Shown: piece by piece, positions 39,951 through 61,055 of the stretch | Layout of the letters: every line of letters begins with the position of its first letter | Position numbering within the stretch: the stretch's first letter is position 1 | Origin: Paenibacillus sp. R14(2021) | GTDB lineage: Bacteria > Bacillota > Bacilli > Paenibacillales > Paenibacillaceae | Direction: 5' to 3' | Length of the DNA: 64,000 nt | Assembly (NCBI RefSeq): GCF_019431355.1 | Contig: NZ_CP080269.1 | Location: forward strand, 3,195,001-3,259,000 | Program-made: the position numbers and the translations under genes | Notes under the pieces: generated by a model | Databases searched by the model: none | Seen by the model: the letters and a program-made list of their open reading frames with translations, nothing else | What the model was told of the DNA's origin: nothing

Positions 39951-40820
39951 TTATTTAAACCAGCGTGCTAGATGCTCCGCCGCCTTCACGATGCCTTGGC
40001 GCTCCGCCTCGAGGGAGCCCCAGAAGCGGTGATCCTCCAGCTCGATGCTGACCGCGCCCGCATAGCCGAGCCGGTCGAGACGAACGGCCACCTTGCCCCA
40101 TTCGACGTCCCCATGACCGGGAATCGTGTAGCGCCAGGAACCTTCGGAGAATCCGTACTTCTCGCCGAAGGTCGACGTCAGCACGCCGCATTCGTACAGC
40201 TCATCATGCAGGATTTCAGTATCTTTGCCGTGGACGTGGTTGATCCGTTCGCCGAATTCGCCAAGCGCCCGAATGTAATCGATGCCAAGCCGCACCAAAT
40301 GGGACGGATCATAATTCAAGCCGAAGTGTTTCGACGGAATCGCTTCGAACATCGCCCGCAGCATCTCCGGGGTGCAGCCAAGCGTCGGATAGTGCGGCGC
40401 AGGTCCCGGCCAGCCCTCGATGGCGATATAGATGCCCTGCTGCTCCGCATGCCTTACGATTTCCGGGAAGGTTTCCTTCCAGATCGCGAAGCCCTCCTTG
40501 CGCGGCAGCGTATGATCCTCCGGTACCAGGCACATGAACAGCACGCGACCGCCCAGCGCCGCGATCTCGCTCATCTCCCGCTTCGCCGCTTCCAAAGCAT
40601 CCGCCCGGCGGCCCTCGTCGCGGCTCAGCAGCTGCCCGGTATGGTGCGCATCGATCGAGCCGATGCCAAGGCCAGCCGCTTCGCAGGCTGCCTTCACTTC
40701 CGGCGTAAGCCGCGAGACGTCCAGAACGTTTAGTCCAGCGCCTGCCGCCCATTGCGCGGTCTTCTCAATGCCTTCCGATCCGATCTTCGGCGGAATCCGC
40801 ATGCCAAGTTTTACATTCAT
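39951..40820 (-). CDS. Sugar phosphate isomerase/epimerase (TIM barrel)
   Basis: 289 residues of the xylose-isomerase-like AP-endonuclease-2 fold. Metal ligands appear in AIEGWPG, NYDPSHLV, HVHGKD and SIELED. Such enzymes interconvert ketoses or oxidised sugars and often work after a Gfo/Idh/MocA dehydrogenase, as here (4-base ATGA overlap with that gene). Last gene of the eleven-gene minus run from 54496. Substrate unknown. Confidence 0.9.
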   Translation of the reverse strand: MNVKLGMRIPPKIGSEGIEKTAQWAAGAGLNVLDVSRLTPEVKAACEAAGLGIGSIDAHHTGQLLSRDEGRRADALEAAKREMSEIAALGGRVLFMCLVPEDHTLPRKEGFAIWKETFPEIVRHAEQQGIYIAIEGWPGPAPHYPTLGCTPEMLRAMFEAIPSKHFGLNYDPSHLVRLGIDYIRALGEFGERINHVHGKDTEILHDELYECGVLTSTFGEKYGFSEGSWRYTIPGHGDVEWGKVAVRLDRLGYAGAVSIELEDHRFWGSLEAERQGIVKAAEHLARWFK

Positions 40821-41812
40821 GCTGTTTGCTCCTCCTCGGAATCGAGTGCTGCGTCCGGCACATAACCGGCCGCTTGATAGATCATTTCGGACAGCTTCAC
40901 GACCTTCAGGGCAAACTCGCCAGGCACGAGCACTTCATGCCGTCCGAGAATCGAATCGATGAAGCTCTTGTCTTGGTTCGTTTCCTGCACGGGCAGCTCC
41001 GGTACGATCGGCTCCTGCCGCAAGCGGCGCAGCGTGATTTTGCCGTTGTCGTAGAAGATACCGCCTTCCTCGCCGCAGAAGACGAAGGTCTCGTGCCAAC
41101 ACGGGGAGTAACCGACGAGGTTCAAGCCGGCAACCGGCCCTTCCGCGAAGCGGATCGATGTGAACGTGTCGATCTCCACGTCCGCGCCGTGCATATGCAG
41201 CTGCGGCTTCACTTCGATCGGCGTCAAGCCGGATGTCCACAGCAGCACGTCGATAATGTGGCTGCCGGAATCCATCAGGAAGCCGCCGCCGGATAGCGCC
41301 GGGTTGGCGCGCCAGGAGCCCGGCGTTCCCTGTCTCCATTCCTGGTACAGCGACGCCGTGATGGACGTCAGCTTGCCGATCTCGCCGTTTGCGATCGCAT
41401 TGCGGATGTATAAGAATTCCGGCTGGAAGTGGCGCTGATAGGATACCTGCATGATTTTGCCTGCTTCCTCCGCCTTGCGGATGAGCAGCTCTGCTTCCGC
41501 AGACGAGCAGGTCATCGGCTTCTCGATCAGCACATGCAGCCCGCTGTCCAGCACATCGTAGGCTTGTTGGAAATGCAGCGTGTGCGGGGAACAGATGACG
41601 ACGGCATCCAGCTCCGCCTGCTCCAGCATATCTTGATAGTTCGTGTACTGCTCTACGCCTTGGAGGTTAAACTTCGTCACGAAGCTCTCCCGGCTTCTCT
41701 CGCTTGTATCCGTAATGGCCGTGATCTCCGCTTCCGTCAATTCCAGCAGCTGCCGGGCATGCAGCCCCGCGATTCCGCCTGTACCGATAAACCCAATGCG
41801 CACTTTACTCAT
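40817..41812 (-). CDS. Gfo/Idh/MocA-family oxidoreductase
   Basis: 331 residues. N-terminal Rossmann domain with GFIGTGGIAGLHARQ, VVICSPHTLHFQQAY and the catalytic-Lys motif LIEKPMT near residue 98; C-terminal domain with GGGFLMDSGSHIIDVLLW (catalytic Asp/His region). NAD(P)-dependent oxidation of a sugar or cyclitol is likely. Together with the isomerase it forms the intracellular end of the uptake pathway. Confidence 0.92.
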   Translation of the reverse strand: MSKVRIGFIGTGGIAGLHARQLLELTEAEITAITDTSERSRESFVTKFNLQGVEQYTNYQDMLEQAELDAVVICSPHTLHFQQAYDVLDSGLHVLIEKPMTCSSAEAELLIRKAEEAGKIMQVSYQRHFQPEFLYIRNAIANGEIGKLTSITASLYQEWRQGTPGSWRANPALSGGGFLMDSGSHIIDVLLWTSGLTPIEVKPQLHMHGADVEIDTFTSIRFAEGPVAGLNLVGYSPCWHETFVFCGEEGGIFYDNGKITLRRLRQEPIVPELPVQETNQDKSFIDSILGRHEVLVPGEFALKVVKLSEMIYQAAGYVPDAALDSEEEQTA

Positions 41813-41868
41813 TTCCTAACCTCCTGTAAGTGAGTGAACTGTCAAGCTCAATTGCTTCAGTATTCGGC

Positions 41869-42882
41869 TTACTCCACCAATCCAGAACGCTCCACGCCTT
41901 GAATGAAATAGCGCTGAAGAAATAGATAGACAAGGAGCATTGGAAACAATGCAAAAAACGTTGCGGCCATGACGACGGGTAAACTGAACACTTCGAACGT
42001 GCTTCCCGTTAACGTATCGAGCGACTGATACAGCCGAGGAAGCATCATCGGCAGCGTGAATTTCTCTTCGGACGTCAGATAGATGGACGGCTCGAAGAAA
42101 TCATTCCAATGCCAGACCAAGGAAAGCAGCGTCGTGACGACGATCGCGGGCGGCGTCAGCGGCATAATAATCTTCCAATACACCCGGAAGCTGCCGCAGC
42201 CATCCACCCGCGCAGCATCCTCCAGCTCCCAGGGCAAGCCCCGGAACAGCTGCCGGAAGATGAAGATGAAGAGCGCGCCTCTAAGCCCGTTGCCGAAGAA
42301 GGAAGGAACGATAAGCGGCAGCACGCTGTCCAGCCAGCCCATCGTCTTGTACTGCATGAACAACGGCACGATAATTGTCTGCGGCGGAATAATCATCGTA
42401 AACATGCAGAGCACGAACAGCACCTCGCGCCCGGGGAACTTGATCCGGGCGAAGCCATACGCGATGAAGGAGCAGGACAGCACTTGACCCACCACGCTGA
42501 GAACCGCGATCAGCGCCGAGTTATTGAAATGGGTCAAGAACTGCAGCCCTTTCATGCCGTAATAGAAGTTCTCCCAAGCTAGACTCGTCGGAATCCATTT
42601 GATCGTGAAATTCATCAGATCCACAGGCTGCTTGAGCGAGGTCGTCATCATATAGATAAACGGATACAGAAACACGAAAGCCAAGTCGATCAGGATGACG
42701 TAAACGAAGATGCGGTAAATGAGCCCGATCCAGCGGCTTTTGCTTCCGATGCGGCTTAATACTGTATGATTTCGCAGAGCCTTGACTTTACTGCCGGCTG
42801 CTCTTGCTTGTGCTTGTGCAGGTGCTTGCGCATGAGCGGCTGCTTTTTGCGGTTTGGTCTTACCTATCGGGTTCGACAGCAT
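41869..42882 (-). CDS. Sugar-type ABC permease with Ala/Gln-rich N-terminal extension
   Basis: 337 residues, about 55 longer than usual. Residues 1-50 are basic and rich in Ala/Gln (AHAQAPAQAQARAAG) before the first helix; then six helices with EAA loop DAARVDGCGSFRVYWKIIMP and ending RYFIQGVERSGLVE. The extension is cytoplasmic by prediction, role unknown. Partner of the following permease. Confidence 0.9.
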   Translation of the reverse strand: MLSNPIGKTKPQKAAAHAQAPAQAQARAAGSKVKALRNHTVLSRIGSKSRWIGLIYRIFVYVILIDLAFVFLYPFIYMMTTSLKQPVDLMNFTIKWIPTSLAWENFYYGMKGLQFLTHFNNSALIAVLSVVGQVLSCSFIAYGFARIKFPGREVLFVLCMFTMIIPPQTIIVPLFMQYKTMGWLDSVLPLIVPSFFGNGLRGALFIFIFRQLFRGLPWELEDAARVDGCGSFRVYWKIIMPLTPPAIVVTTLLSLVWHWNDFFEPSIYLTSEEKFTLPMMLPRLYQSLDTLTGSTFEVFSLPVVMAATFFALFPMLLVYLFLQRYFIQGVERSGLVE

Positions 42883-42904
42883 GATGCGGATACCTCCTTG
42901 CAGC

Positions 42905-43774
42905 TTATTTTTCGCCAGTATAAATAATCAGTCGGCGGGTAGACACAAACACAAGGACGAGCAGCAGGAAAATAAACAGGAAGTAAATCCAGCCCATGCT
43001 TGAAGCGTAGCCCATCTCGATATTGGTAAAGGCCGTATCCTTGATATACACCATCATTCGGTTGTTGATATCCGTGAAGGAATCGACGCACGTATAGACG
43101 AGATTGAGCAGAATAATCGGCGTCATAAGCGGCAGCGTAATCTTCCAGAACATCTCCCACTCCGTCGCTCCGTCGCATCTTGCCGACTCATAGAGCGATA
43201 CGGAGATACCCTGCAGACCAGCCAGGAAGAGCAGAATCTGCACGCCCGTCTTCCAGAAAATCACGGTCAGCCGGCTCAGCATGTCGAAGACGATCTGCGA
43301 GAACGTCGGCCCCATGTAGAGGAATACCTCATCCGGCACGCCGATCCCGTTCACGAGCGTATCCTTGCCGACGCCTGCATACAGCAGCTGCTGCATCGCA
43401 AGACCGGAGCCGATCAGCACGGGCAGGAAGAACGCCGCCCGGAAGAATGCGCGCCCCCGGATGTTATGATTCAGCAGGATGGAGATAAAGAGCGAGAATA
43501 CGAGTATGAGCGGCGTATTGATAACTGCATCCTGAATAACCGAGATAAACAGCGGGATAAACTTCGTATCGAGCACGAAAGCCTTGTTGAAATTGCCCCA
43601 GCCGACGGAGGTCAGCTCGAAATTGCCGACCCCTGCCACCTCATGGAAGCTGAGCCAAAGGGAATAGACCAGCGGATAGAGCATAAACAACGCAAAACCG
43701 ATTGCCCACGGCGCGATATAGACATAGCCCGCCATCATTTTCTTACGTTCCAAACTCATCTTCTGCCCTCTCAT
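42905..43774 (-). CDS. Sugar-type ABC permease (MalF-like)
   Basis: 289 residues, six helices, EAA loop ESARCDGATEWEMFWKITLP. It starts 2 bases after the DUF5696 stop, with GGGAGG in the end of that gene, so it is coupled to it. No binding protein is adjacent, so this second permease pair must use one of the upstream binding proteins. Confidence 0.91.
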   Translation of the reverse strand: MRGQKMSLERKKMMAGYVYIAPWAIGFALFMLYPLVYSLWLSFHEVAGVGNFELTSVGWGNFNKAFVLDTKFIPLFISVIQDAVINTPLILVFSLFISILLNHNIRGRAFFRAAFFLPVLIGSGLAMQQLLYAGVGKDTLVNGIGVPDEVFLYMGPTFSQIVFDMLSRLTVIFWKTGVQILLFLAGLQGISVSLYESARCDGATEWEMFWKITLPLMTPIILLNLVYTCVDSFTDINNRMMVYIKDTAFTNIEMGYASSMGWIYFLFIFLLLVLVFVSTRRLIIYTGEK

Positions 43775-43776
43775 GC

Positions 43777-46020
43777 TTATCCTCCCTTCGGCACGACGAT
43801 AAAGTTGTTGTCCGGCACGACATGGCCGTCATCGGTGCGGACCTCGCGCGGCGTATAGTTGACGATGACGCGGGTGCCGTCCTCGTACGTCACCTCGTAC
43901 ACGTCCTTCTGAAGCTTGCGGTGCTCGCGGATTGTCTGCGACCACACGGACTGCAGCTTCTCGTTCATTTCCTTGTACTGCCGGACCGACTGGGCCGACC
44001 AATTGGTATACGACGAGCTGAACAGATCGTTATAGTAGGTGTCCTTCAGATCCTCTGCGTGATTCGCCGTAAACTGGTAGTAAGGCATATAGCCGTATTC
44101 CACCATCTTGAGGTACTGCAGCTGCGGATCGTAGAACAGGTTCTGCGGATCGCCCGAGTACGGAATCAGCCCGTGCACGACCATCTGATAGAGCGGAATC
44201 GTCTCGTCGGTGAAGAAGAACCCGCTGTCCTCCATCGGAATGCCGAACAGGCGCGAGGAGTGTTTAAGCGTATAGCCGTTGCCGCCGATGGAAGCGGCGC
44301 CGCCGAATTGCTTCTCGGACTTGGCCATCATCTCCATCCATTGCCCGGCCGTCCCTTCGCGCGTCTGCTCGTAACCGTCGTTGTAGTCGTAATAGTCCTC
44401 GTAGCCGACGCCGTCGAAGTTAATGCCCGTGATCGACAGCTTGCTAAGCGGATCCACGATCTTCTTCTGGAACTCGTCGTTCTGCTTGCCAGCGCTCAAG
44501 TAGAAGAGCTCGCTGTAGCGGTCGGTCACGGCAAAATGATTCGCCCCGACGACGACGTCGCTGCGGGTCGAGAAGCCCTTGATCCCTTTGAAGGCCATCA
44601 AGTAATTGTCCTGTAAGTAGAGCGGAATGCCCTTCGCTTTGGCGTATTCGCTCAGCTTCTTCAGGCCGCTCATGCCGCCCAGCTTCGTGGAAGGCTTATA
44701 GCCTGACGGGTAAGACAAGTATCCTTTGCCCGTCCAGCCGAGCAGGTTGGCGGAGATGGATTGCACGCCTTTCTTGCCGAGATCCTCCATGATTTGCTGC
44801 GCTTCCTCGTAGGTCGTCGTCTGAATGAGATGATCGAACAGAATGCGGTTTTCCGTGATGCCCATCAGCAGATCGAGACCAAACGGAACGGGATCTCCCT
44901 TCTTGATGCGCGGCTGCACGCCCTGCTCCTTCACCAGATAGTTCCGGTAGGCCGAAGCCATATGGCTGTAGTCGGCCTCTTCTCCGCTTAAGAATACGTA
45001 GCGGATCGTATGGTCCTCGCGCAGCAGGTCTTTCTCCGGCTTCTTGGTCAAGTTCCCGTCTTTCTTCACCGCCTCGTATTCGCGCCGGTACACCAGCTCC
45101 GAGGATACGCGGTTCAAGTTGATCAAATACCCGCTCGGCGAGTACAAAATGTTAGCATCGTATTCACCCTTCGTGATCATGCCGACGAATGCGTTGTCGC
45201 TGACCTTCAGCCCGAAGAGCGGCAGCATCGCGTTCATTTCCCGTTTGTAATTCTCGAACGTAATCGTGTCCGGACCATAAACGCTGGCCCGGTAAGGGTT
45301 CAGATAAGAAGGATGAATCGGCTTGAAGGTCGACAGCGCGCCGGGGCCGTCCGGATAGACCGAGTAGCCCTGCTCGTGGTCCGTCGCCGCCCCGAAGAAC
45401 GGAAGCGGCGCGATCGCCATCAGCCAGTTGTTCTTCGACTCTTGTACGGATTGACCCGGAACAGTGACTTCGAGGGCGTCGCCCTTCAGCTGGAATTTCA
45501 TATCGAAGCTGATCTTCAGCCGCTCCAATTCATAATGGACGGAAATACCGTCCGCAAGCGGCGTTGCCTTCATCTTCGGCTTCTCCAGCACGGAGTTCGT
45601 CTCCTGTGTTTCGAGTGCCGGCAGGTTCGGGTCCGTGAAGGTCAAATGGAATATCGACTGACTGCTGGCCGTCCACAGCTCATTCCCGTCGGTGTTCACA
45701 TCCTGCAGCGGCACCGTCGACTGCCAGACATGGCCGTTGCTCTTGTCCTCCACCTCTATTGCGGAGTCGGCGGCCCGGAAGCGGAGCTCGAGACGGTCCG
45801 TCTCCGCTACCTTCTCGTACGAGCCCAGCTCCTCAGGCTGGCTGTCGTCTTCCGGCGCGTCTCCTGCGGCCTCGTCGGCGGCTGCGGTCTTCACCTTGAT
45901 CTCCTGCTTCGCTCGTTCGACCGCGCTTTTCACAGAGGGGAGCGCCAGGAGAACGAGCGCAGCGATGACCAAGCCGACTACCGAATAATAGATCCATTGT
46001 TTGGCTTTTCTCGTATTCAT
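43777..46020 (-). CDS. Membrane-anchored DUF5696 protein, possible glycosidase
   Basis: 747 residues. One N-terminal membrane helix (about 11-30) with the bulk predicted outside the cell, an acidic linker (AAADEAAGDAPEDDSQPEE), then a beta-sandwich region (about 70-330; LELRFRAADSAIEVEDKSNG, YSVYPDGPGALSTF) and a TIM-barrel-like region (about 370-680) with ENRILFDHLIQTTTYEEAQ, GIPLYLQDNYL and ITGINFDGVGYEDYYDYND, where an Asp lies at a strand end as in clan D/GH101-like retaining enzymes. DUF5696 has no proven activity; glycosidase is my inference from fold and context. The gene lies between Yip1 and a permease pair. Confidence 0.75.
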   Translation of the reverse strand: MNTRKAKQWIYYSVVGLVIAALVLLALPSVKSAVERAKQEIKVKTAAADEAAGDAPEDDSQPEELGSYEKVAETDRLELRFRAADSAIEVEDKSNGHVWQSTVPLQDVNTDGNELWTASSQSIFHLTFTDPNLPALETQETNSVLEKPKMKATPLADGISVHYELERLKISFDMKFQLKGDALEVTVPGQSVQESKNNWLMAIAPLPFFGAATDHEQGYSVYPDGPGALSTFKPIHPSYLNPYRASVYGPDTITFENYKREMNAMLPLFGLKVSDNAFVGMITKGEYDANILYSPSGYLINLNRVSSELVYRREYEAVKKDGNLTKKPEKDLLREDHTIRYVFLSGEEADYSHMASAYRNYLVKEQGVQPRIKKGDPVPFGLDLLMGITENRILFDHLIQTTTYEEAQQIMEDLGKKGVQSISANLLGWTGKGYLSYPSGYKPSTKLGGMSGLKKLSEYAKAKGIPLYLQDNYLMAFKGIKGFSTRSDVVVGANHFAVTDRYSELFYLSAGKQNDEFQKKIVDPLSKLSITGINFDGVGYEDYYDYNDGYEQTREGTAGQWMEMMAKSEKQFGGAASIGGNGYTLKHSSRLFGIPMEDSGFFFTDETIPLYQMVVHGLIPYSGDPQNLFYDPQLQYLKMVEYGYMPYYQFTANHAEDLKDTYYNDLFSSSYTNWSAQSVRQYKEMNEKLQSVWSQTIREHRKLQKDVYEVTYEDGTRVIVNYTPREVRTDDGHVVPDNNFIVVPKGG

Positions 46021-46029
46021 GGTACCCCC

Positions 46030-46677
46030 TTAATTCTCCATTAAATAGCGGACTTCGATGAAGACTTCGCGCGCGAACTGTAGAACGTGGTTCGTCAAGG
46101 CGAAGACAAGTCCGACGGTGCCCCAGAAGATGATGAAGGCAAAAACGCTTAGAAGAAGCACGCCGACCGATTTCTTAAACGAATAGTCGTTCAGCACCTT
46201 CAGTTGAATGAAGATCAACAGGGCGACCCATATCCAAATCAGGAGATTGATGCTGTGATAGAGTCCGATCTCGCCTCTCGAGAGCACCTGAGAGATGGCC
46301 GCGAGCGGAATGGCAAACACGATATACGGAATCAAGGCGTACGACATCGCGGTCAGAATTTGGCTGAAATACGCCTCGCCGTCCATGATCGCAGTAATCA
46401 AATAACAAGCGACGACACCGGAAATAAGCGGCACTACGAAGCGGATCAATTCCAGATTCAAATCCGCGTACTGCGGCTGCAGCGCCGTAATGTGGAAGCT
46501 CGTCATGTAGATCGTGATGATCCGAACGCACAGGGTCATCACGATGAGCACGAATGCCGAGACCAGGCTCTTGTTCTTCTGCAGCTCCTCGAACCCGTCG
46601 GCAGGATGGAAGAGGATGGCGATGCCGAGCCGCAGCGACCGCAGCCCGGATTGTTTCATGAGCTCCGTTTTGGTCAA
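46030..46677 (-). CDS. Yip1-family membrane protein
   Basis: 215 residues with five hydrophobic helices in the Yip1 pattern: AILFHPADGFEELQKNKSLV at the start, then FVLIVMTLCVRIITIYM, FVVPLISGVVACYLIT, MSYALIPYIVFAIPLA and a C-terminal pair. The family is named for a eukaryotic trafficking protein; the bacterial role is unknown. Its ATG region overlaps the end of the NHL/TPR gene by 4 bases. Tight coupling to the NHL/TPR membrane protein and DUF5696 suggests a joint membrane complex. Confidence 0.82.
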   Translation of the reverse strand: MTKTELMKQSGLRSLRLGIAILFHPADGFEELQKNKSLVSAFVLIVMTLCVRIITIYMTSFHITALQPQYADLNLELIRFVVPLISGVVACYLITAIMDGEAYFSQILTAMSYALIPYIVFAIPLAAISQVLSRGEIGLYHSINLLIWIWVALLIFIQLKVLNDYSFKKSVGVLLLSVFAFIIFWGTVGLVFALTNHVLQFAREVFIEVRYLMEN

Positions 46678-48098
46678 AATCCATACCTCCTTATGACGGT
46701 ATTCGTGACGCGAATCATTCCTTTCACGATGAGGTAGATCGCGTAAACGATGAGCGCCGCGCCGATGAGCAGCCAGCCTAAGTATTTGCGCATGATATCG
46801 TGCCGGTACTCGGCAAACGCCTTGGAATAGCCGTCCTGATCCTCGCCCAGCTTAAATTCCTTCATGGCATCCTTCCAGCGCTCTTCCTTCATCAGCGCCT
46901 TGGCCACGCCGCGATGCGCCAGCGGATAGTTCTCGTCGATTTTCAATACTTCCTTCCATGGGACGAGCGCCTCCTGGTAGCGGCCGTTGAAATGCAGCTG
47001 GCTCGCCTGATGGATCAACTCCGCGAACCGCGTGGGCTGGAACACCTGGATGTTGTTCCGGTCCCGGTCGAGCACGTAGATCTTGCCGGCTTTATCCACC
47101 ACGATGCTGGTCGGGTACTCGAACCGGCTCTTCACGTCGCCTTGGCCGCCGAATACGGCCAGCAGATTACCCTCTTGGTCGTATTGGTAGATTTTGCGCG
47201 ACATGGCGTCGAGCGCGTTCACGACGCCGTATTGGTCAACCGCAAGATCGACGAAGTACGGCTGCTCCAGCGTGCCGCTGTCGATGGAAGGCTGGCCGAA
47301 GGCGGCTTTCTTGTAGATGTTCTCGCCCATGGCGTTAAACTTCTTGATCTGATCCGCGTCGATAAGTACCGTCGGCGAATAGATGAAGCCTTTGGTGTCT
47401 ATCGTCAGATTCGCGTTCTGCGCCGGTACTGCGTTGTTCAGCTGCTCCCGCTGCTCCGGCGTTGCCAGGAGGCGGATAAGCAGGTTCTTCCAATCGAACG
47501 GCACGCGGTTCGCGCCAATGTAGCCCCGGAACCGGTTCATGGCATCGATCATCATGAAGCCGCTGTAGTCGTTCTTATTCAGGACGTATAAATAGCCGCG
47601 GCGGTCCATGATGACCTTATCCGGCGCGAATTCGAGATCCTCGCTGAGCAGGCTCGACTTCGGCTTGACGAACTCTTCGACGAATTCGCCTTTCGGCGAC
47701 AGGTGAATAACCCGCCCGCTGCCCGTATCCGCAACGAACATATCGCCCAGCTGATCGACGAAGATGCCGCTCGGCTGATCGAGCTCGACGCCTTGATCCT
47801 TGCCAAAGATCGCGAGCACCTTGCCGTCGCCGTTCAGCTTCACGATCCGGTTATTGTCCGTGTCCGCGACATAGAGCAGCCCTTGATCATCGAGAAACAT
47901 ATCGCTCGGCTTGTTAAACCCGAGATCGCCGATGTCGAGCACGACGCGGTCGACGGTATAGGTGAGCGGAATCGGGATTCTGTAGCCGTACATCGGGTCA
48001 AGCGTATACGACATTTGCGGGAGTGCGTAGGCGGGTAACCCGCCGATCAGCAGCAGCAGACAGCCGATGATGCCCGCCGTAATTCGTTTGTGCAGCAA
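46674..48098 (-). CDS. NHL-propeller/TPR protein with C-terminal membrane helix
   Basis: 474 residues. Signal segment 1-25 (GCLLLLIGGLPAYA|LPQ), six or so NHL repeats (about 55-355; NKPSDMFLDDQGLLYVADT, QPSGIFVDQLGDMFVADT, YPTSIVVDKAGKIYVLDR), one TPR-like helical unit (about 362-420; YQEALVPWKEVLKIDENYPLAHRG split over it), and a membrane helix near 443-463 with a short basic tail. The propeller is therefore outside, tethered by the C-terminal helix. It may bind glycan or another surface protein. I know no characterised relative with this order. Confidence 0.8.
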   Translation of the reverse strand: MLHKRITAGIIGCLLLLIGGLPAYALPQMSYTLDPMYGYRIPIPLTYTVDRVVLDIGDLGFNKPSDMFLDDQGLLYVADTDNNRIVKLNGDGKVLAIFGKDQGVELDQPSGIFVDQLGDMFVADTGSGRVIHLSPKGEFVEEFVKPKSSLLSEDLEFAPDKVIMDRRGYLYVLNKNDYSGFMMIDAMNRFRGYIGANRVPFDWKNLLIRLLATPEQREQLNNAVPAQNANLTIDTKGFIYSPTVLIDADQIKKFNAMGENIYKKAAFGQPSIDSGTLEQPYFVDLAVDQYGVVNALDAMSRKIYQYDQEGNLLAVFGGQGDVKSRFEYPTSIVVDKAGKIYVLDRDRNNIQVFQPTRFAELIHQASQLHFNGRYQEALVPWKEVLKIDENYPLAHRGVAKALMKEERWKDAMKEFKLGEDQDGYSKAFAEYRHDIMRKYLGWLLIGAALIVYAIYLIVKGMIRVTNTVIRRYGF

Positions 48099-48110: not shown

Positions 48111-48974
48111 CTAAGATTTGATTCCCGAATGAACCATCGTATTCATGATCAGCTTCTGGAACAGCAAGAAGATCACAATCGGCGGCAGAGTCACGAGGAA
48201 GGTACCCGCGGCAAGCGCGCCCGACCTCGCAACCACACCTGGACCACCGGCCAGCGTCTGGATGGCGAGCGGCAGCGTCTTCATCGTCTCGCTGGTCGTG
48301 AAGACGAGCGCCGAGAAGTAATCGTTCCAGTTGCCGATGAACGAGAAGATGATCAGCGTCGCCCAAGCCGGCTTGCTCACCGCCATGATGACCTTCCAGA
48401 AAATCTTCCAGTCTGACGCCCCGTCGATATGCGCCGCTTCGATCAGCGCATCCGGGATTTGATCGAAAAACTGCTTCATGAGGAAAATGTTGAACGCGAC
48501 CGCGATTTTCGGCAGAATGAGTGCCCAGTACGTGTTGACGAGACCCAGGTTGGAGACGATCATGTACGTCGGAATCTGGGTCACCTGAGGCGCGAACATG
48601 AGTGCCGACAGAATCACGGAGAAAATAAACCCCGCGCCCGGCGGTTTGAACTTGGACAGCACGTACGCGCCAAGGCTGCATACGAACAAGCTGAGCGCCA
48701 CGATCGAGCCGGAGATGAACAGGCTGTTAAAAATATACCTCGTGAACGGAACGACCGAGCTGTCGGTCGCCGTCAGCAAGTCGAAGAAGCTGCGCAGGGT
48801 AGGCTTCTGCACGAAGAACCGCGGCGGATACAGGAACAGCTCGTCAAGCGGCTTGAACGCCGTCGAAACCATGTAGATGATCGGCAAGGCCGTGAAGCCG
48901 ACCAGCGCGATCATGAATGCGTACAACAATCCCCTGTTGAAGCGGGCAACAAACTTCGCATAGTTAATCGTCAC
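48111..48974 (-). CDS. Sugar-type ABC permease (MalG-like)
   Basis: 287 residues, six helices, EAA loop EAAHIDGASDWKIFWKVIMA (the final Leu-Pro is replaced by Met-Ala, unusual), ending IMNTMVHSGIKS. Second permease of the pair next to the CBM-fused binding protein. Confidence 0.9.
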   Translation of the reverse strand: MTINYAKFVARFNRGLLYAFMIALVGFTALPIIYMVSTAFKPLDELFLYPPRFFVQKPTLRSFFDLLTATDSSVVPFTRYIFNSLFISGSIVALSLFVCSLGAYVLSKFKPPGAGFIFSVILSALMFAPQVTQIPTYMIVSNLGLVNTYWALILPKIAVAFNIFLMKQFFDQIPDALIEAAHIDGASDWKIFWKVIMAVSKPAWATLIIFSFIGNWNDYFSALVFTTSETMKTLPLAIQTLAGGPGVVARSGALAAGTFLVTLPPIVIFLLFQKLIMNTMVHSGIKS

Positions 48975-53047: not shown

Positions 53048-54496
53048 CTATTTGGCTGCTTGCAGTTTCTTCAGCTCGCTGTCGACATTCTTCTTCACTT
53101 CGTCAAGCAGCTTCTTCGGCTCGCCTTTGCCGTTCAATGCGAGATCCTGCACGCGGAACGTCTCGTCCCACATCTTCTGTCCGGCCGGTGTAACAGGGCG
53201 GAAATGCGCTTGCGGCATCATGTCCAGGAACACTTTAAGCTGCGGGTTGTCCGCGATTTTGATTTCATCGTTTACTTGTGGCATCGCCGTAATGTCATTG
53301 CCGGCATCCGCGCGTTTTGCCCAGAGCAGCGTACCCTTGTAGCCTGCGATGAATTTCAGGAATTCCCACGCTTCCTTCGGATGCTTCGCACCCTTCGGCA
53401 TCGCGAAGGACCAGCCGCCTGCCCACGTCGTTTGCGGGTAGCCATCTTCGGAAGGCATCGGCGCGACGCCCCATTCGAACGTCGGTTTGACCTTCGCGTT
53501 GCTCTTCAGGTCGTTCAGAATCCAGTTGCCGTCGACCATGAAGCCGACTTTGCCTGTCCAGAACGGGTTGATGCCGGTTTTGCCCATGACGTCGTTGAAT
53601 TTGTTGATTTTGGCCATATCGTATTTCTTGGCGTAACCGGCCATCCATTCCAGCGCCTTGACGATCTGAGGATCGTTCGGCGTCAGCTCATCGCCCTTCG
53701 TCCATTCGCCGCCGAAGTTCCAGCTTTGCGTGTACAGGTAGCTTTGTCCCATCCAAGGAATGAAGCCGACCTGCTCATACCCGCCGCTCGTCGTTTTCTT
53801 GAAGATTTTCTCCGCCATGGCGTCCAGCTCGCTGACCGTGGTCGGCGGCTTCTCCGGATCCAGGCCCGCTTCTTTCATCAGCGTCTTGTTATAGTAGATG
53901 CCGCGGTTATCCGTTCCGAACGGCATCGCGTACAGTTCGTTGTTGTAGTTGCCTTCCGCCCATACGGCCGGGTAGTAGTCGTCCGCGCCGACTTCACTGT
54001 CAGTCTCGAGGTAGGGCTGCAAGCTCTCAAGCGAGCCTTTGGCTGCCCATGCGCCTGCCATGAAACGGTCGAGGATCGCGACGTCCGGAGGCGTGCCGCC
54101 GGCGATCAAGGTGGTCAGCTTGTCGTTGCCGCCTTGGTCTGGGATGTATTTGATCTTGATATTCGGGTGCAGCTTCTCGAACTCGCTGATGACGATCTTC
54201 GTGAAATCGGTCTGGAATTTGCCGCTCCAGGACCAGAAGTCGAGCGTGACTTTCTCGCCGCTGTCCTTGCCTGCGTCGTTGTTAGCCGCATTCGCGTCTT
54301 TCGTGTCCGCCGCCGCGTTGTCCGTCGACGCGGCATTGTTTGTTTTCGCCGCATTATCGGTGTCCGCCGTGTTGGAATTGCCGCCTCCGTTTGCCCCCCC
54401 GCAGCCTGTCAATACCAAACTTAATGCTAAAGCCGTTACGAAAAACTTGATCATGCCCGGTCTTACTCGCAGAGTGCCCATGCTTTTGTTCTCCAC
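53048..54496 (-). CDS. Extracellular solute-binding lipoprotein, first gene of the large operon
   Basis: 482 residues from GTG 54496 (AAGGAGG 7 bases upstream). Lipobox LTGC near residues 29-32, a long Asn/Ala/Asp-rich linker (about 35-72), and the family 1 fold (VTLDFWSWSGKFQTDFTKIV, PPDVAILDRFMAGAWAAKG, YAMPFGTDNRGIYYNKTLMK, TWAGGWSFAMPKGAKHPKEA). Closely related along its length to the binding protein at 56054-57457. It carries the 27-base element about 100 bases upstream and is probably induced by the regulator at 59340-61055. Confidence 0.92.
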   Translation of the reverse strand: MENKSMGTLRVRPGMIKFFVTALALSLVLTGCGGANGGGNSNTADTDNAAKTNNAASTDNAAADTKDANAANNDAGKDSGEKVTLDFWSWSGKFQTDFTKIVISEFEKLHPNIKIKYIPDQGGNDKLTTLIAGGTPPDVAILDRFMAGAWAAKGSLESLQPYLETDSEVGADDYYPAVWAEGNYNNELYAMPFGTDNRGIYYNKTLMKEAGLDPEKPPTTVSELDAMAEKIFKKTTSGGYEQVGFIPWMGQSYLYTQSWNFGGEWTKGDELTPNDPQIVKALEWMAGYAKKYDMAKINKFNDVMGKTGINPFWTGKVGFMVDGNWILNDLKSNAKVKPTFEWGVAPMPSEDGYPQTTWAGGWSFAMPKGAKHPKEAWEFLKFIAGYKGTLLWAKRADAGNDITAMPQVNDEIKIADNPQLKVFLDMMPQAHFRPVTPAGQKMWDETFRVQDLALNGKGEPKKLLDEVKKNVDSELKKLQAAK

Positions 54497-54610: not shown

Positions 54611-54627
54611 ACCTTGCGCCTGAACGC

Positions 54628-54666: not shown

Positions 54667-54747
54667 AATGCGTGAAATTGTACGTTCTGTAACTTTTTTA
54701 CAATGTTAATCGTCTGGATGACAAATGCTAAAGGAGGTGTACAGCCT

Positions 54748-55950
54748 ATGAAGCTGAAGAGAATACTGGTGACCGTTATTGCCCTTGCCGCTTTCACCGC
54801 ACTATACAATACCCAGGCACAGCCGGCACGCGCCGCCGCTGCAAACACGCCGGCTTCAATAGCCGACCGCACAGCGTCAACCCTTTTACCCGATGCCGGT
54901 ATTTCCCCTGACACTTATATTTTCGATGGGAAGCACCCGAACGCAGACTTCTTCGTTCATCAAGGGACAACGTATCTATCCTGCCGGCAGGCGTCCGCCA
55001 TGTTCCGGGATTTGGTCTGGTCCTACGACGCGAAGTCGAAGAGCTTGAAGATCAGCGGTCCGAATCGGACGCTAAGCTGGAAGGCCGGCAGCCGCACCGC
55101 GGTTATTAACGGCATAAGCCGCAGGATGTCTGCAGCATTAATGGTCCGAAGCGGCAGCCTAAGCTTGCCGCTTCGGGAGCTCGCGAATTGGGCGGGCGGC
55201 AGTATCCGAGCCTATCCCGGTCAGTTGATAGGCGTCTCTTATACCGTCCGCAGTGTATTATCCGGCGAAGGCAATAATCGGTACTGGGTGCGAAGAGACA
55301 ACGGCATTGTCTATAGGGCTGCAGGCTTCGAGATGCCGCATCAGATCGGCTATTCGGCTGTCAGAGCGGGCCAATACGTCGATATGTCGGTGTCCCGCAT
55401 CGACAACCAAACCGTCGTTCTAGAGGTGACGCACAACTACGGCGAGCCGAGTCTTGCCAATACGATTTACCGGCTGCTCCTTCACGAGGGCAAGCTCGTC
55501 AGGGCGTCGTCAGCCTCGTATTATGGCGTGAGCAAGGTGCAGAGCATGCTGAACGCGGAAGGATTAGTCGCGATGGTGGACGGTTCGCGGCTGCTCCTTG
55601 TTGATGCAGCCGGCAAGGCCGTCCGAACCTATGATTTGAAGAAGCTTGGCGGCAAGGACGAAGACTACACCGTGGAATATGCTTCCGCAGCCGATGATAC
55701 GCTGGTCATTCGACCTTATTCCTCACAAACGCTGCTCCTTGTTCGTCCCGACTTAGCAGCGCCGATCATCTTGTATAAGGAGCTGCTTTCCAAGGAAGAG
55801 CAGTCGCTGTTCGAGCAGCAAGAACCAAACGTTACGATTCCGCCGCGAGACAGGCTTCAATTCGGGAAGAGAACCGGGAATACGTTCACGTTCGGACATC
55901 TAACCTTATCGGGGCCGAATGAAGACCTGACGTATACCTTAGCGCCATAG
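54748..55950 (+). CDS. Secreted copper amine oxidase N-terminal-like (stalk domain) protein
   Basis: About 400 residues from ATG 54748, which follows AAAGGAGGTG. Signal peptide to about residue 30 (ARA|AAANT). A stalk-like domain (about 55-150) with FFVHQGTTYLSCRQASAMF, DAKSKSLKISG and LSLPLRELANWAGG is of the CuAO_N type common in Paenibacillus surface proteins. The rest is beta-rich (VVLEVTHNYGEPSLANTIYRL, LVIRPYSSQTLLLVRPDL) and unassigned. The only plus-strand gene within the 40-61 kb locus, between two related binding-protein genes; may be an accessory surface protein. Confidence 0.75.
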   Translation: MKLKRILVTVIALAAFTALYNTQAQPARAAAANTPASIADRTASTLLPDAGISPDTYIFDGKHPNADFFVHQGTTYLSCRQASAMFRDLVWSYDAKSKSLKISGPNRTLSWKAGSRTAVINGISRRMSAALMVRSGSLSLPLRELANWAGGSIRAYPGQLIGVSYTVRSVLSGEGNNRYWVRRDNGIVYRAAGFEMPHQIGYSAVRAGQYVDMSVSRIDNQTVVLEVTHNYGEPSLANTIYRLLLHEGKLVRASSASYYGVSKVQSMLNAEGLVAMVDGSRLLLVDAAGKAVRTYDLKKLGGKDEDYTVEYASAADDTLVIRPYSSQTLLLVRPDLAAPIILYKELLSKEEQSLFEQQEPNVTIPPRDRLQFGKRTGNTFTFGHLTLSGPNEDLTYTLAP

Positions 55951-55972
55951 TGCAGGTGTATACAGACGATGG

Positions 55973-56004
55973 AAAGGGGGGCTGCCTAAAGGCAGCCCCC
56001 CTTT
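55973..56004. terminator. Strong bidirectional terminator
   Basis: AAAGGGGGGCTGCC-taaa-GGCAGCCCCCCTTT, perfect 14-base arms, between the convergent stalk-domain and binding-protein genes. Confidence 0.85.
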
Positions 56005-56053
56005 CGAATACAGCCCAGCGCCTCGAGCCGCAGCTATGTATCCCTTCTCGGCG

Positions 56054-57457
56054 CTACTTCGACGTCTCGCCGAACACGCCTGCCTTCACCCGAGCCAGCT
56101 CCGCATCGACCTTCTTCTTCATCTGGTTCAGCAGCGCCTGCGGCTCGCCCTGCAGCTGCACCGCCAGATTCTGCACGCGGTACATCTCGTCCCACATGTA
56201 GCCGCCTACAGGCGTAACCGGACGGATATGCGCATGCGCCAGCAGATTGACGAAGACGCTCAGGTTCTCTTTGTGATCCAGTCCAAGCTGCGCATTTACC
56301 TCCGGAATGCTGGTAATATCGAATTTGCTTCCTGCCCGGCTCGCCCACAGCAGCGCGCCTTCCTTGCCCGTAATGAAGGTAATGAACCTCCAGGCCTGCT
56401 CCTGATGCCGCGCCCCCTTCGGCATGACGAATGACCAGCCCCCCGCCCAGGTCTCATCCAAGCTGCTGTCCACGGTAGGCATCGGTGCTACGCCCCAGTC
56501 GAACGATGAATCCCCGATTTCGTTCAACAGCCAATTGCCTTCGTAGATAAAGCCTACCTTGCCGGAGAGGAACGGATTTCTCCCGGTCTGTTTCAAGGCA
56601 TTCGTGAAGCTGAATAGTTTCTTCGTGCCGTATTTCTTGGCATAGTACTGCATCCAACGCAGCGCGTTCACGATGGCGGGATCATTCGGCGTCAGCGCTC
56701 CGTTCTTCTCCCATTCGCCGCCGAAATTCCAGCCGTGCGTATATAAGAAGCCCTGACCCAGCCAAGGAATCATCCCCACCTGGTCGTAGTCTCCCTTGCC
56801 GTTCGTCCTAAACATCTTCTCCGCCATGCCATCAAGCTCGGAAATGGTGGCCGGAGGTTTGTCCGGGTCGAGTCCCGCTTCCTTCATCATGGTCTTGTTG
56901 TAGAACATCGCCCGGCTGTCCGTATTCCACGGAAGGGCATAGGTTCTCCCGTCATACTGCGCCTCCGCCCACATGGCAGGGTAATACATGCCGGCGATTT
57001 GATCCTGCTTCGCCCTCTCCGACAAGTCCTCCAGCGCATCCATGGCCGCCCATTCCCCGACGACGAACCGGTCCAGCATCGCGACGTCCGGAGCCCGTCC
57101 GCCGGCAATTGCCGTCAACAGCTTGTCTGACGCCTGCGAATTATCCGAGTTCTCGACGAACGTCAGCTGGACTTTAATATCAGGGTTCGCCGCCTCGAAC
57201 GGCTTGACGACCGTGTCGTCGAACTCCTTCTTGAAGCCGCCGCCCCATGGAAACCATAAGCTGATCGTAACGGGCTCGCCGCCTGCCTCGTTCTCATTCA
57301 GGGAAGGATCTTCTGCATCCAGCGCTCCGGCCTTCGTGCTCGAACCGGTGCCGAACCCGCAGGCGTTTACGAACAAGATGACGGCGACCGTGAAGACAAC
57401 CAAGATCGATACAGGTGTTCTTCGGCGAATCAGAAGCTTCTTCATCGTTACATTCAT
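56054..57457 (-). CDS. Extracellular solute-binding lipoprotein linked to the two-component pair
   Basis: 467 residues. Lipobox VNAC near residues 30-33, then the family 1 fold (VTISLWFPWGGGFKKEFDDT, APDVAMLDRFVVGEWAAMDA, YALPWNTDSRAMFYNKTMMK, TWAGGWSFVMPKGARHQEQA). A clear paralog of the protein at 53048-54496. It is the last gene of regulator - kinase - binding protein and has no permease of its own, so it may act as co-sensor for the kinase or as a second receptor for the permeases of the long operon. Confidence 0.92.
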   Translation of the reverse strand: MNVTMKKLLIRRRTPVSILVVFTVAVILFVNACGFGTGSSTKAGALDAEDPSLNENEAGGEPVTISLWFPWGGGFKKEFDDTVVKPFEAANPDIKVQLTFVENSDNSQASDKLLTAIAGGRAPDVAMLDRFVVGEWAAMDALEDLSERAKQDQIAGMYYPAMWAEAQYDGRTYALPWNTDSRAMFYNKTMMKEAGLDPDKPPATISELDGMAEKMFRTNGKGDYDQVGMIPWLGQGFLYTHGWNFGGEWEKNGALTPNDPAIVNALRWMQYYAKKYGTKKLFSFTNALKQTGRNPFLSGKVGFIYEGNWLLNEIGDSSFDWGVAPMPTVDSSLDETWAGGWSFVMPKGARHQEQAWRFITFITGKEGALLWASRAGSKFDITSIPEVNAQLGLDHKENLSVFVNLLAHAHIRPVTPVGGYMWDEMYRVQNLAVQLQGEPQALLNQMKKKVDAELARVKAGVFGETSK

Positions 57458-57508
57458 CCCCCTCTGTCAGGCATCTTGCAATCCGAATCCTCTTGGCGCC
57501 TGCCGGCG

Positions 57509-59326
57509 CTAGCTGATTTGTCTGACGGGATCACTCCTTAACAGCGGAACGGTCAGCGTGACCCGCGTCCCCTGGCCGCTCCAGCTGTCGATTTCGATAC
57601 CGTACGGCGAGCCGTAAGCGATTTGAATCTGAGCATTAATATTGCGAAGTGCAAAATGGCTTCCCTCGATCGTATCCCCGCCGCGCCGCAGCAGCTGCTC
57701 GCGCAGCTCCTTCAGCTTATCCGGCGCAATTCCTTTCCCATCGTCCACCACGATAAACTTCAAGCTGCCGCCTTCCTGAAGGAACGAAACATCGAGCCTG
57801 CCCTTACCCGATTTCTTCTCCAGCCCGTGATAGATGGCATTCTCCACAATCGGCTGGAAGATCGATTTCAACACCTTGTAGTCGCCAAGCGACTCGTCCA
57901 CGTGCAGATGCAGCGAGAATTTATCCCGGTACCGAACCTTTTGAATCATAATATAGCTGTCGATCAATTGCGCAATCTGGCTGATGGCGACCTCATCCTT
58001 GCCTTCGCTTAGACTTAGCCTCAAATACTTGGACAAGCCGAAGACCATCGTACTGATGTCGTCGACCTTATGAATGCGGGCAATCCAGTGCACGGAATCC
58101 AAGGTATTGTATAGAAAATGAGCATTGATCTGCGAGCCCAGCATCTTCAGCTGAAGCCCCTGCTCCAGCAGCTTCTGCACGTACAGCTCGTTGATCAGCG
58201 CTTTGATCCGAGCTACCATTTCGTTGAAATGAATGAATAAATACCCGAATTCATCCTCCCGCTTGTCCATGATCCGCACGTCGAAATCCCCGTTCTTTGC
58301 TTTGCGCATCGCCCGAATCATCTTCTGCAGCGGCAGGTGCACCGACGATGCAATAATGACCGCCAGCAAGATGCCGATCGAGGAGAATATGACGCCGAGC
58401 GTTAGCATATACCAGCGGATATCCCGGGCTTCCTTCATTAAGTCCGTACCGCGCATCATGCCGACCAGCGTCCAGTCCGCGGTTTCCAGCCGGTTGTAGA
58501 CGACGAGCTTGTTCTCGCCGCCCTTCTGACTGCTGAATATGCCTTGATTCGCCTTCGACAGCGGAAGGCCGATGGGGATTGCGCCCAGCAAGCCGTCCTT
58601 GTCTCCGACAATTCGTTTTTCTTGATCAATGAGTATATTCATGCCGGAACCATCGTAGTCGATCTCCGCAAGAAGATCCGTAATTTCGATGGGATCCATC
58701 TCGTACAGCAGCACGCCGATAATTTCGCCGCGCCGGTTGACGTCCTTCTCCGCCCGGCCAAAGCAGAACACCGGCCCCGCGCCGGGCTGCTCGCCTCTGA
58801 TCAGGGAAGGCCCGATGCCGAAGTAAACGACTTGCCCGTCCGCCTCGCGAACTCGCTTGTACCATTCGGTTTCAGCATAATCGGCAGCGTACGGATTGTA
58901 GACGGGAAACGAATCTCGCGGCGAATACCGGAAGGAATAGCCCTTCTCTCCGAGCAGATAGATGTTCTCGATATCGTTTCTGGAATTGACGAGATTGGCG
59001 AGAAACGCCGTGTTGTCATTGTTCGTATCGATCCGCTCCAGCCCGTTCTGAAAGTCTCCGACCAGCTGCTTCTGGATATTCTTGTTGCCGAGAACGAGCA
59101 GCGAGCGGTCCTCGTAGCCCGCCAGAATCGTATCGAGCCGCTTGCTCATTTGCTGTACGTTTTGGAGTGCCATGCCCCCGATTTTGGTTTCGATCATTTC
59201 CGCGGATTTGTCATAGGCGAGATAGCCCATAACGGCGATAATAATCAGCATGCTTGCGACGTAGAAGCCGAACACCTTAACGCCTACCGAAGTTAGATTC
59301 GATTTGCGAACGAAAGACAGCATCAT
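57509..59326 (-). CDS. YesM-type sensor histidine kinase of the uptake locus
   Basis: 605 residues. Helix near 17-38, extracellular sensor (about 40-292; GYSFRYSPRDSFPVYNPYAA), helix near 296-318, HAMP (PLQKMIRAMRKAKNGDFDVR), phospho-His motif INAHFLYNTLDSVHW near 400 (Ala replaces the usual Pro after Asn), N box ENAIYHGLEKKSG, G1 box DDGKGIAP. It starts 13 bases after the regulator stop. It should sense the substrate of the large importer, directly or through the lipoprotein encoded next. Confidence 0.93.
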   Translation of the reverse strand: MMLSFVRKSNLTSVGVKVFGFYVASMLIIIAVMGYLAYDKSAEMIETKIGGMALQNVQQMSKRLDTILAGYEDRSLLVLGNKNIQKQLVGDFQNGLERIDTNNDNTAFLANLVNSRNDIENIYLLGEKGYSFRYSPRDSFPVYNPYAADYAETEWYKRVREADGQVVYFGIGPSLIRGEQPGAGPVFCFGRAEKDVNRRGEIIGVLLYEMDPIEITDLLAEIDYDGSGMNILIDQEKRIVGDKDGLLGAIPIGLPLSKANQGIFSSQKGGENKLVVYNRLETADWTLVGMMRGTDLMKEARDIRWYMLTLGVIFSSIGILLAVIIASSVHLPLQKMIRAMRKAKNGDFDVRIMDKREDEFGYLFIHFNEMVARIKALINELYVQKLLEQGLQLKMLGSQINAHFLYNTLDSVHWIARIHKVDDISTMVFGLSKYLRLSLSEGKDEVAISQIAQLIDSYIMIQKVRYRDKFSLHLHVDESLGDYKVLKSIFQPIVENAIYHGLEKKSGKGRLDVSFLQEGGSLKFIVVDDGKGIAPDKLKELREQLLRRGGDTIEGSHFALRNINAQIQIAYGSPYGIEIDSWSGQGTRVTLTVPLLRSDPVRQIS

Positions 59327-59339
59327 GATGACCTCTCTT

Positions 59340-61055
59340 CTATGCGCCGTAGTTGCGGAACTGGGCGGGCGTCATGCCCTCCCACTCCTTGAACGTCTTC
59401 ACGAAATGGCGAAAATCCTTATAGCCGACCCGGTCGGCGATTTCATAAATTTTGAGGGGTGTTTGTTCAAGCAGCTCTTTGGCCTTGGAAATCCGGATGC
59501 GGATGAGATAGCGGCTGAGTGTTTCTCCGACTTCTTCATGGAACATTCTGCTGAAATACGAGGGGTTCAAGTAGATCGTCTCGGCCACGTTATGAAGGCT
59601 GATGCCAAGATGAAAGTTGTCGTGGATATAGCGCAGCGCGTGCTCGATCGTTCGTTTCTGTCCGAATCCGGCCGCGCCTGAATCTTTCTTGAGAAAAGCG
59701 TTCATCACCGTCTGCTTCCAATCCGGAAGCGGACATCGGTACAGCTGCAGCTTCATCTGATGCGTAATCTCGCGGGGCTTGGCGCGGTCCTTGCCCCTGC
59801 ACAGCTCCTGCCATTTGGCCAGCAGCATGTCGATATACAGATTCATCTCGCAGCGAACGGCAAACGCACTTCCCTGCTTGACCGTCTCTTGAAGCAGCTT
59901 CAGCTGCTCATCCAGCAGCTCGGACAATCTGCTTTCGTCCATCTGCTTCATGGCGTGAAGCATCCGATTGGACCACGCCGTATCCAGCGCCTCCGTCTGA
60001 ATCGTGATATAGGGAACCTCGCCGGCAAGGGCTTCGTGCATGTCGCCTGATCCGCCCGTTCGATGCGCCGGCGCTGTGGCATGACCTTCTCTTACGCCGG
60101 ACGAGGGCGTGCATCCCGCTGCTGTACCATGTACGAGACCCGCACCACGTACAAAATAATCAACACTATATGTAAGCGCTTCCCTAAACGCGAAAAAAAG
60201 CTTCTTCCCTTCCCCCGTGCCGCTGACGCCAATGCTGATGCGCAAGCCTAGAATCTGCAGTGCCCGCTTAATCATCCGATCCGCGCCGCGGCACACATCG
60301 TCTTGACCTGCGGAAGCTGTCCCATCCTCCAAGGAGGCGATAAGCGCCACGTCCGCAAAATCATTCTCATGCAGCGGACAGGCCAAGCTGCGGACGCCTT
60401 CTTCCGCGAGCATCTCCGCCATGAGATTGCCGAGCGCATAACGCATGAGCGAGCACCCGCTTTCGTTCAAGGCGCGCTCGCCCCAATCATGGACGACGGC
60501 AGACAGCACCACGAGCCGCTCCGGATTCAGGTCAATGCCGAGGGCCTCCCATTTGGCCCGAAGCTCCTGCCCTGCAATCGGCCGGGACAAGCAAATTTCG
60601 AGCTGCTTCTGTTTCGCGAGCGGAATGCTTTCCCTCACCAGGCCGGACAGCTCTTCCATACGGGAGAACAGCTTCCGCTTCTGCTTGATCTCGGCGACGC
60701 AGCGGTCAATGATCTCAAGCAGCACATTCTCCTCGATCGGCTTTAATATATAGTCGAAGGCCCCCAGCTTAACGGCCTTCTGTGCATAGACGAAATCGTT
60801 GAAGCCGCTTATGAAGATTACCTTGGTAACGATACCACGCCGCTTCATTTCTTCCATAAGCTCCATTCCATCCATAGAGGGCATCTTAATATCCGTAATC
60901 ATGATGTCCGGAACGTTCGATTCCAGCAGCTCCAGCGCCTGCAGGCCATCCTCGGCGTCGCCGATAAACTCAATGCCGTGCGCCGCCCAATCAATGGTCT
61001 GCTTCAACCCTTCCCGAATCCAAAGTTCATCGTCGACTACCATGAGTTTTACCAT
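59340..61055 (-). CDS. YesN-type response regulator of the uptake locus
   Basis: 571 residues. Receiver 1-120 with Asp55 in MITDIKMPSMDGM and the Lys in YILKPIEEN; a middle region carrying a Gly/Ala-rich insert (about 305-345; GTAAGCTPSSGVREGHATAP) not seen in the other two regulators; then two AraC HTH units (ISLHNVAETIYLNPSYFSRMF, KIYEIADRVGYKDFRHFVKTF). GGAGGGC precedes ATG 61055. The 27-base element lies 85-111 bases upstream, so the gene is probably autoregulated. Confidence 0.93.
   Translation of the reverse strand: MVKLMVVDDELWIREGLKQTIDWAAHGIEFIGDAEDGLQALELLESNVPDIMITDIKMPSMDGMELMEEMKRRGIVTKVIFISGFNDFVYAQKAVKLGAFDYILKPIEENVLLEIIDRCVAEIKQKRKLFSRMEELSGLVRESIPLAKQKQLEICLSRPIAGQELRAKWEALGIDLNPERLVVLSAVVHDWGERALNESGCSLMRYALGNLMAEMLAEEGVRSLACPLHENDFADVALIASLEDGTASAGQDDVCRGADRMIKRALQILGLRISIGVSGTGEGKKLFFAFREALTYSVDYFVRGAGLVHGTAAGCTPSSGVREGHATAPAHRTGGSGDMHEALAGEVPYITIQTEALDTAWSNRMLHAMKQMDESRLSELLDEQLKLLQETVKQGSAFAVRCEMNLYIDMLLAKWQELCRGKDRAKPREITHQMKLQLYRCPLPDWKQTVMNAFLKKDSGAAGFGQKRTIEHALRYIHDNFHLGISLHNVAETIYLNPSYFSRMFHEEVGETLSRYLIRIRISKAKELLEQTPLKIYEIADRVGYKDFRHFVKTFKEWEGMTPAQFRNYGA

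Follow-up and report, generated by a model that had tools for sequence, protein, structure and literature searches.

What is the working unit in a locus that carries three binding proteins, two permease pairs and a set of further membrane proteins side by side? The question arises in a stretch of 64,000 nucleotides from Paenibacillus sp. R14(2021) (NZ_CP080269.1, positions 3,195,001 to 3,259,000; the whole stretch is referred to as the window), for which an initial annotation had described a self-regulated locus for the capture, trimming and import of surface glycans. The actual unit consists of eight genes, encoding in this order a fusion of carbohydrate-binding module (CBM)-like domains with a solute-binding protein (SBP), permeases A1 and A2, a protein with NHL beta-propeller and TPR (NHL-TPR), a Yip1-family membrane protein, a DUF5696 protein, and permeases B1 and B2. 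We lean towards the view that the products of this block form one enlarged carbohydrate ATP-binding cassette (ABC) importer, likely capturing plant polysaccharide at the surface and importing its fragments.

Co-occurrence was analyzed in 147 genomes of the family to which the host of the window belongs. DUF5696 has matches in 104 of them, of which 95 are strong and 9 have a best E no better than 3.7e-13; NHL-TPR has matches in 116, of which 95 are strong and 21 reach no better than 7e-10. The Yip1 protein of the window and the CBM-like domain (E up to 1e-20) have matches in 95 each. After removal of the weak matches (9 genomes for DUF5696, 21 for NHL), the presence sets of the four proteins are identical, with 95 genomes holding all four and 52 holding none. 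Copy numbers of Yip1 and the CBM-like domain are equal in 91 of the 95 genomes. The window genome itself holds four copies of the block; it displays six Yip1 matches, and the four above the Pfam cut-off are the four DUF5696 loci.

Gene order was compared in 60 loci of the family, 18–20 kb each and inclusive of the window genome's own copies, which were taken from the NHL list plus own copies (L051–L070), the DUF5696 list (L071–L090 and L105) and the Yip1 list (the rest of L091–L110). The order given above is kept in all 60 and in the window. Since this core order recurs in loci of many genomes, the gene set goes beyond chance. A free SBP gene stands at one end of the block in most of the 60, and its position at either end is usual, not invariant. 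The genes of L095 are broken, and L104 holds an extra SBP gene before NHL. The 20 loci compared from other families of this phylum all keep NHL, Yip1, DUF5696, B1 and B2 together. A further 80 named loci were seeded on the CBM-SBP protein, being the best 80 of 580 relatives (Paenibacillus, Cohnella, Bacillus, Lederbergia, Neobacillus, Caldicoprobacter, Lachnospiraceae and metagenome-assembled genomes (MAGs) of Chloroflexota); CBM-SBP, NHL, Yip1 and DUF5696 are all found in 74 of these, and so is a B1-type permease in 74. Of the full set of 161 loci (160 plus the window), 155 keep DUF5696, NHL and Yip1 together, and 154 have a permease gene no more than 300 bases beyond DUF5696. The search with the DUF5696 protein reached 34 proteins, query included. 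The initial annotation had tied its proposal to a twofold test; the first half, co-occurrence of NHL-TPR, Yip1 and DUF5696 with importer genes in other genomes, is borne out by these data.

Some of these loci deserve separate mention. The whole block is present in three records titled Chloroflexota MAG (L165, L166, L168). Upstream of its complete block, L182 has a further DUF5696 gene (752 aa) in its 5′ part, with NHL-Yip1 out of view; this gene may represent the end of a separate block. In L150, an Omp85/POTRA gene (15274–17088), coding for a protein of outer-membrane type, lies near the block, and "surface" would mean periplasm in that genome.

We propose the following mode of action. A glycan chain would be held at the membrane by the CBM-like/SBP protein and by DUF5696, which is probably anchored there; both proteins display N-terminal hydrophobic segments in hydropathy analysis. 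NHL-TPR, tied into the membrane via Yip1, might act as a scaffold which brings both permease pairs to the bound chain, and the two pairs would pass oligosaccharides inward, driven by an ATPase of the MalK/MsmX type that is presumably encoded outside the block in most cases. In the window copy, a dehydrogenase and an isomerase could then process the sugar, while a kinase/regulator pair could sense it.

The permeases fit this proposal. All four of the window carry an EAA-type loop, the site of contact with the ATPase, and the family consensus of A1 and B1 retains it. An apparent lack of this loop in A1 (0 of 145 by pattern) was rejected as an artefact of a strict pattern, as the alignment displays EAG..DG at this position. 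Conservation is lower in B1 (consensus YEA-x-x-x-EGAT), where a loose pattern matches 57 of 154 sequences; the BPD_transp_1 score of the window's own B1 is 20.7 versus a cut-off of 26.4 bits. The block of the window encodes no ATPase; its genome holds one OB_MalK gene, far from the block. In 24 of 161 loci, the gene immediately before CBM-SBP encodes a MalK-type ATPase (28 matches in the scan, 4 of them non-adjacent, with some loci starting too near CBM-SBP to tell). In Bacillus, MsmX is an ATPase shared among importers, and a single distant MalK gene together with the upstream ATPase genes fits such sharing. Of the functions assigned by the initial annotation, capture, through the CBM-like domains and the SBP, and import, through the permeases and the ATPase, have homology as their only support.

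Further ties exist between the proteins of the block. NHL-TPR has a signal-like N-terminus and a single C-terminal hydrophobic segment (440–458, hydropathy), and in 55 of 156 loci (one of which is the L095 fragment) a single open frame encodes both NHL and Yip1. Across 143 loci, correlations of pairwise protein distances are 0.96 for A1-A2, 0.95 for B1-B2, 0.90–0.92 for A against B and 0.96 for NHL-DUF5696. Comparison of paralogues within one genome is a test free of species descent: in each of the eight protein families, the smallest distance among the four loci of the window genome is that between L060 and L061, as would be expected if the block is duplicated and then diverges as a whole.

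Several points weigh against one enlarged importer. Common descent raises all distance correlations and partly explains the high values, and the free SBP also reaches 0.84–0.92 in the same 143 loci. The loci were chosen non-randomly from listed best matches. In the 20 loci of other families, the half with permease pair A lies upstream of the B half in 12, downstream in 2 (L151, L152) and out of view in 6, three of these six on short contigs; the two halves are therefore separable in space. The CBM assignment of the N-terminal domains of the fusion is weak, as judged from sequence: CBM_35 reaches a best E of 4.9e-5, and Golvesin_C and GH115_C score equally or better. Beta-sandwich domains are placed at about 64–247 and 248–412 and the SBP domain at about 590–990; fold comparison of the model gave a list filled by SBP matches, so the N-terminal domains were tested by sequence only. 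The active-site acids of DUF5696 are variable (see below), and the operon of the window holds no hydrolase by Pfam. Finally, the hydrolase neighbors, in themselves a point in favor of the proposal, stand without a background rate: genes downstream of the blocks (83 of 153 listed open reading frames (ORFs) scanned) include glycoside hydrolase (GH) families GH10 (5), GH30 (4), GH43 (4), GH26 (4) and GH5 (3), along with many unrelated families, e.g. ABC_tran (5). Several of the hydrolase neighbors point to plant polysaccharides as putative substrates; as these neighbors vary, a constant block probably deals with different glycans at different loci.

The role of DUF5696 can be weighed within the importer proposal. 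The initial annotation had assigned trimming to it, and an active exo-glycosidase that shortens the captured chain, compatible with one enlarged importer, seems possible to us and short of probable. The predicted structure displays the fold of GH129 (beta-sandwich, TIM barrel, C-terminal beta domain), with full-length homology to GH129 NagBb (5wzn) and to the active 3,6-anhydro-galactosidase DagB (ZGAL_3152, 5opq), and 13–18% identity to GH129 and GH129-like enzymes in structural alignments. DagB (P0040, Zobellia), a characterized enzyme, is recorded with PF18952 (DUF5696), and hence the family "of unknown function" touches a known enzyme. The strand-5 catalytic acid of DagB is E517, and the second catalytic residue of NagBb is not kept in DagB homologues (PMC5698469). 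DagB D486 corresponds to NagBb D435, the catalytic Asp of strand 4. In our alignment, DagB E517 falls on NagBb E478 by our count. Residues were mapped onto DUF5696 by sequence profile, with an uncertainty of a few positions. Between positions 545 and 605, where the strand-5 acid is expected, acids do not reach 60% of the 150 sequences in any column; an acid at 578 occurs in 51, and acids at both mapped catalytic positions in 33 only. At the end of strand 4, an acid at 536 or 537 is found in 111 of 150 sequences, the profile alignment placing DagB D486 inexactly, and D545 (139 of 150), D605 and E641 are conserved too, so that a changed catalytic pair is conceivable. As the GH129 acid pair is not conserved, trimming by DUF5696 is unproven and the earlier claim is not supported in that form, in spite of the fold; holding the glycan would seem at least as likely a role. 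Since no conserved strand-5 acid was found, we keep DUF5696 outside GH129. A search of 299 genomes of the phylum with PF11308 (GH129) gave zero matches for the controls as well and is hence uninformative.

The main rival to one enlarged importer is a pair of separate, co-inherited importers of ordinary type, co-regulated for different products of one polysaccharide, with permeases A served by CBM-SBP and permeases B by the free SBP, NHL-Yip1 and DUF5696. We regard this as a somewhat unlikely explanation that has to be taken seriously. It would account for the loci in which the A half is downstream or out of view, and also for full-length CBM-SBP genes in 10 of 10 tested genomes outside the family, as independent importers would allow; these include five of the six with the A half out of view, the sixth (G408) being outside this test. 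Six loci of the full set are without DUF5696 alongside. Three are contig ends (L196, L223, L228). In the other three (L224, L232, L238), DUF5696 is found on the contig and strand that carry the CBM-like domain, but 27–31 kb away from it when measured between starts, compared with about 8 kb in the window. Reading the latter three as an A half alone was ruled out: the distant DUF5696 adjoins a one-frame NHL-Yip1 and B1-B2, and these loci are therefore complete but split. Large ORFs intervene, and those scanned include GH106, GH42 and GH2 in one genome and GH95 and an apiosidase-like protein in another, some having no family; the insertion of enzyme genes between the halves in these three genomes also suits separate importers. 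On the other hand, two independent importers would hardly lead one to expect identical presence sets, matching copy numbers in 91 of 95 genomes or an order kept in 60 of 60 family loci, and blocks with a MalK-type gene directly in front have one ATPase for two permease pairs. A stronger form of the importer proposal is a single supercomplex, in which NHL-TPR-Yip1 would yoke two permease heterodimers together while a non-catalytic receptor of GH129 fold and a CBM-armed SBP reel in the glycan, so that long chains could enter the cell in place of short oligosaccharides. This we consider rather unlikely.

A glycan sensor instead of an importer is very improbable. The kinase/regulator pair with its own SBP upstream in the window, and a kinase upstream in the close orthologous loci, would suit it, but regulator genes lie outside the core elsewhere, and four permeases with EAA-type loops plus ATPase genes directly upstream in 24 loci speak for transport. 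The weakest candidate is export or assembly of a cell-surface glycan, suggested by the probable surface and membrane proteins, by NHL and Yip1 as families without a fixed uptake role, and by Yip1 genes reported from leaderless and circular bacteriocin clusters, where a role in immunity or transport has been suggested (PMC11580447; PMC9484092); it is likewise very improbable, as binding proteins and permeases with EAA-type loops belong to importers and some neighbors are degradative hydrolases.

Carbohydrate ABC importers of the CUT1 type include MalEFGK, UgpABCE and the MsmX-served importers of Bacillus. The block resembles these in its SBP of the SBP_bac_1 type, its permease pairs of the BPD_transp_1 type with EAA-type loops (B1 scoring below the Pfam cut-off) and a MalK/MsmX-type ATPase that is available and often encoded apart from the permeases. 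It differs in the two permease pairs, the CBM-like/SBP fusion, NHL-TPR-Yip1 and DUF5696, and we know of no described CUT1 system with this combination. DUF5696 in turn differs from NagBb and DagB in its N-terminal anchor-like segment and in catalytic acids that are not conserved as a pair. A Gram-positive polysaccharide utilization locus unites a transporter with its regulator and a degradative enzyme. Here, too, an importer lies next to a regulator, and some relatives add hydrolases; the window operon, however, is without a Pfam hydrolase, and the constant part is a membrane block, not enzymes. In the Sus systems of Bacteroidetes, surface glycan-binding proteins feed a membrane importer, as would be the case in the mode of action proposed above; Pfam results for the window genes contain no SusC/SusD family, and ABC permeases are found instead.

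In the open-access literature that was searched, no paper was found on DUF5696, or on Yip1 together with NHL, transporter, SBP or hydrolase. The block combination is not described among top-ranked open-access titles and abstracts, subscription literature being outside this scope. NHL, Yip1 and DUF5696 are absent from the main text of the Paenibacillus JDR-2 transcriptome paper (PMC4765114), and PMC10440823 holds no NHL, DUF or transporter terms. Hence, the block as a unit is apparently undescribed, although its parts are known families; it appears to be a variant of the carbohydrate ABC importer, and its action as one machine is inferred. Its markers occur in almost two thirds of the sampled family genomes, some in many copies, and the block extends to Lachnospiraceae, other Bacillota and Chloroflexota MAGs. 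If it acts as one machine, NHL-TPR, bacterial Yip1 and DUF5696 would gain a shared role, the retention of two permease pairs per locus would be explained, and the block could serve as a marker for glycan-uptake loci that enzyme-based searches may miss. A single supercomplex, if true, would be a Bacillota answer to the Sus system.

Table 1. Genes of the locus in the window, with Pfam families and sequence features
Feature	Coordinates	Strand	Evidence
Solute-binding protein 1	53048..54496	-	SBP_bac_1 E 1.9e-43; lipobox LTGC; first operon gene
CBM-like/SBP fusion	49963..52941	-	N-terminal hydrophobic segment, duplicated beta-sandwiches, helical linker, C-terminal SBP domain
Permease A1	48991..49941	-	BPD_transp_1 E 2.1e-10; EAG..DG loop
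Permease A2	48111..48974	-	BPD_transp_1 E 5.1e-11; EAA..DGA loop
NHL beta-propeller + TPR protein	46674..48098	-	Pfam NHL E 2.9e-18; TPR_11 E 7e-5 (under cut-off)
Yip1-family membrane protein	46030..46677	-	Pfam Yip1 E 1.4e-12; several hydrophobic segments
DUF5696 protein	43777..46020	-	N-terminal hydrophobic anchor-like segment; GH129-fold domain
Permease B1	42905..43774	-	EAA-type loop YESARCDGATEW; UgpA-like; BPD_transp_1 below cut-off
Permease B2	41869..42882	-	BPD_transp_1 E 1.4e-17; loop DAARVDGC
Gfo/Idh/MocA dehydrogenase (accessory)	40817..41812	-	Pfam
Sugar isomerase/epimerase (accessory)	39951..40820	-	Pfam AP_endonuc_2; xylose-isomerase-like TIM barrel
Third solute-binding protein, regulator operon	56054..57457	-	SBP_bac_1 E 4.6e-39
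Histidine kinase, dCache sensor, YesM type	57509..59326	-	Pfam
AraC-type response regulator, YesN type	59340..61055	-	Pfam
Divergent Cu_amine_oxidN1-domain gene, outside core	54703..55950	+	Pfam E 1.5e-6

The eleven minus-strand genes at 54496–39951 (Table 1) are present as first described, with Pfam families as named, and the same holds for three SBP genes and two permease pairs. Their gaps, 5′ to 3′, are 106, 21, 16, 12, −4, 9, 2, 22, 56 and −4 bases; by ORF coordinates, 8 of 10 junctions are below 25 bases, as had been stated for most of them, and the "several" overlaps exist but number two. The regulator operon (response regulator, kinase, SBP) has gaps of 13 and 51 bases. The whole span is not one unbroken unit, because the plus-strand Cu_amine_oxidN1-domain gene, omitted in the initial annotation, separates the two operons. 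Promoter-like sites (6 versus 11.1 expected) and terminator-like sites (18 versus 18.6) are no more frequent than by chance, and the window displays neither a tRNA nor an Rfam match that reaches the gathering score.

The description of the locus as self-regulated holds locally, since all 8 close orthologous loci (L051–L058) have a kinase gene upstream, but not over all loci, where the three upstream genes nearest to each block add up to only 13 kinases and 19 regulators. The dehydrogenase and isomerase belong to the window operon but are accessory, as no dehydrogenase is in view in 3 of the same 8 loci. The dehydrogenase is nearest to NCBIfam inositol 2-dehydrogenase and the isomerase to IolE, both far below cut-off.

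Other parts of the window hold related genes. On the minus strand, 22730–29976 contains a second kinase/regulator pair and permease pair, together with a 575-residue gene product which is binding-protein-like by profiles and has no Pfam family. The minus-strand region 32087–37256, with an SBP, a permease pair and a GH130 mannooligosaccharide-phosphorylase-like gene, is likely a separate mannooligosaccharide locus. On the plus strand, 13098–14843 encodes an alginate-lyase-like protein with a weak concanavalin-like match.

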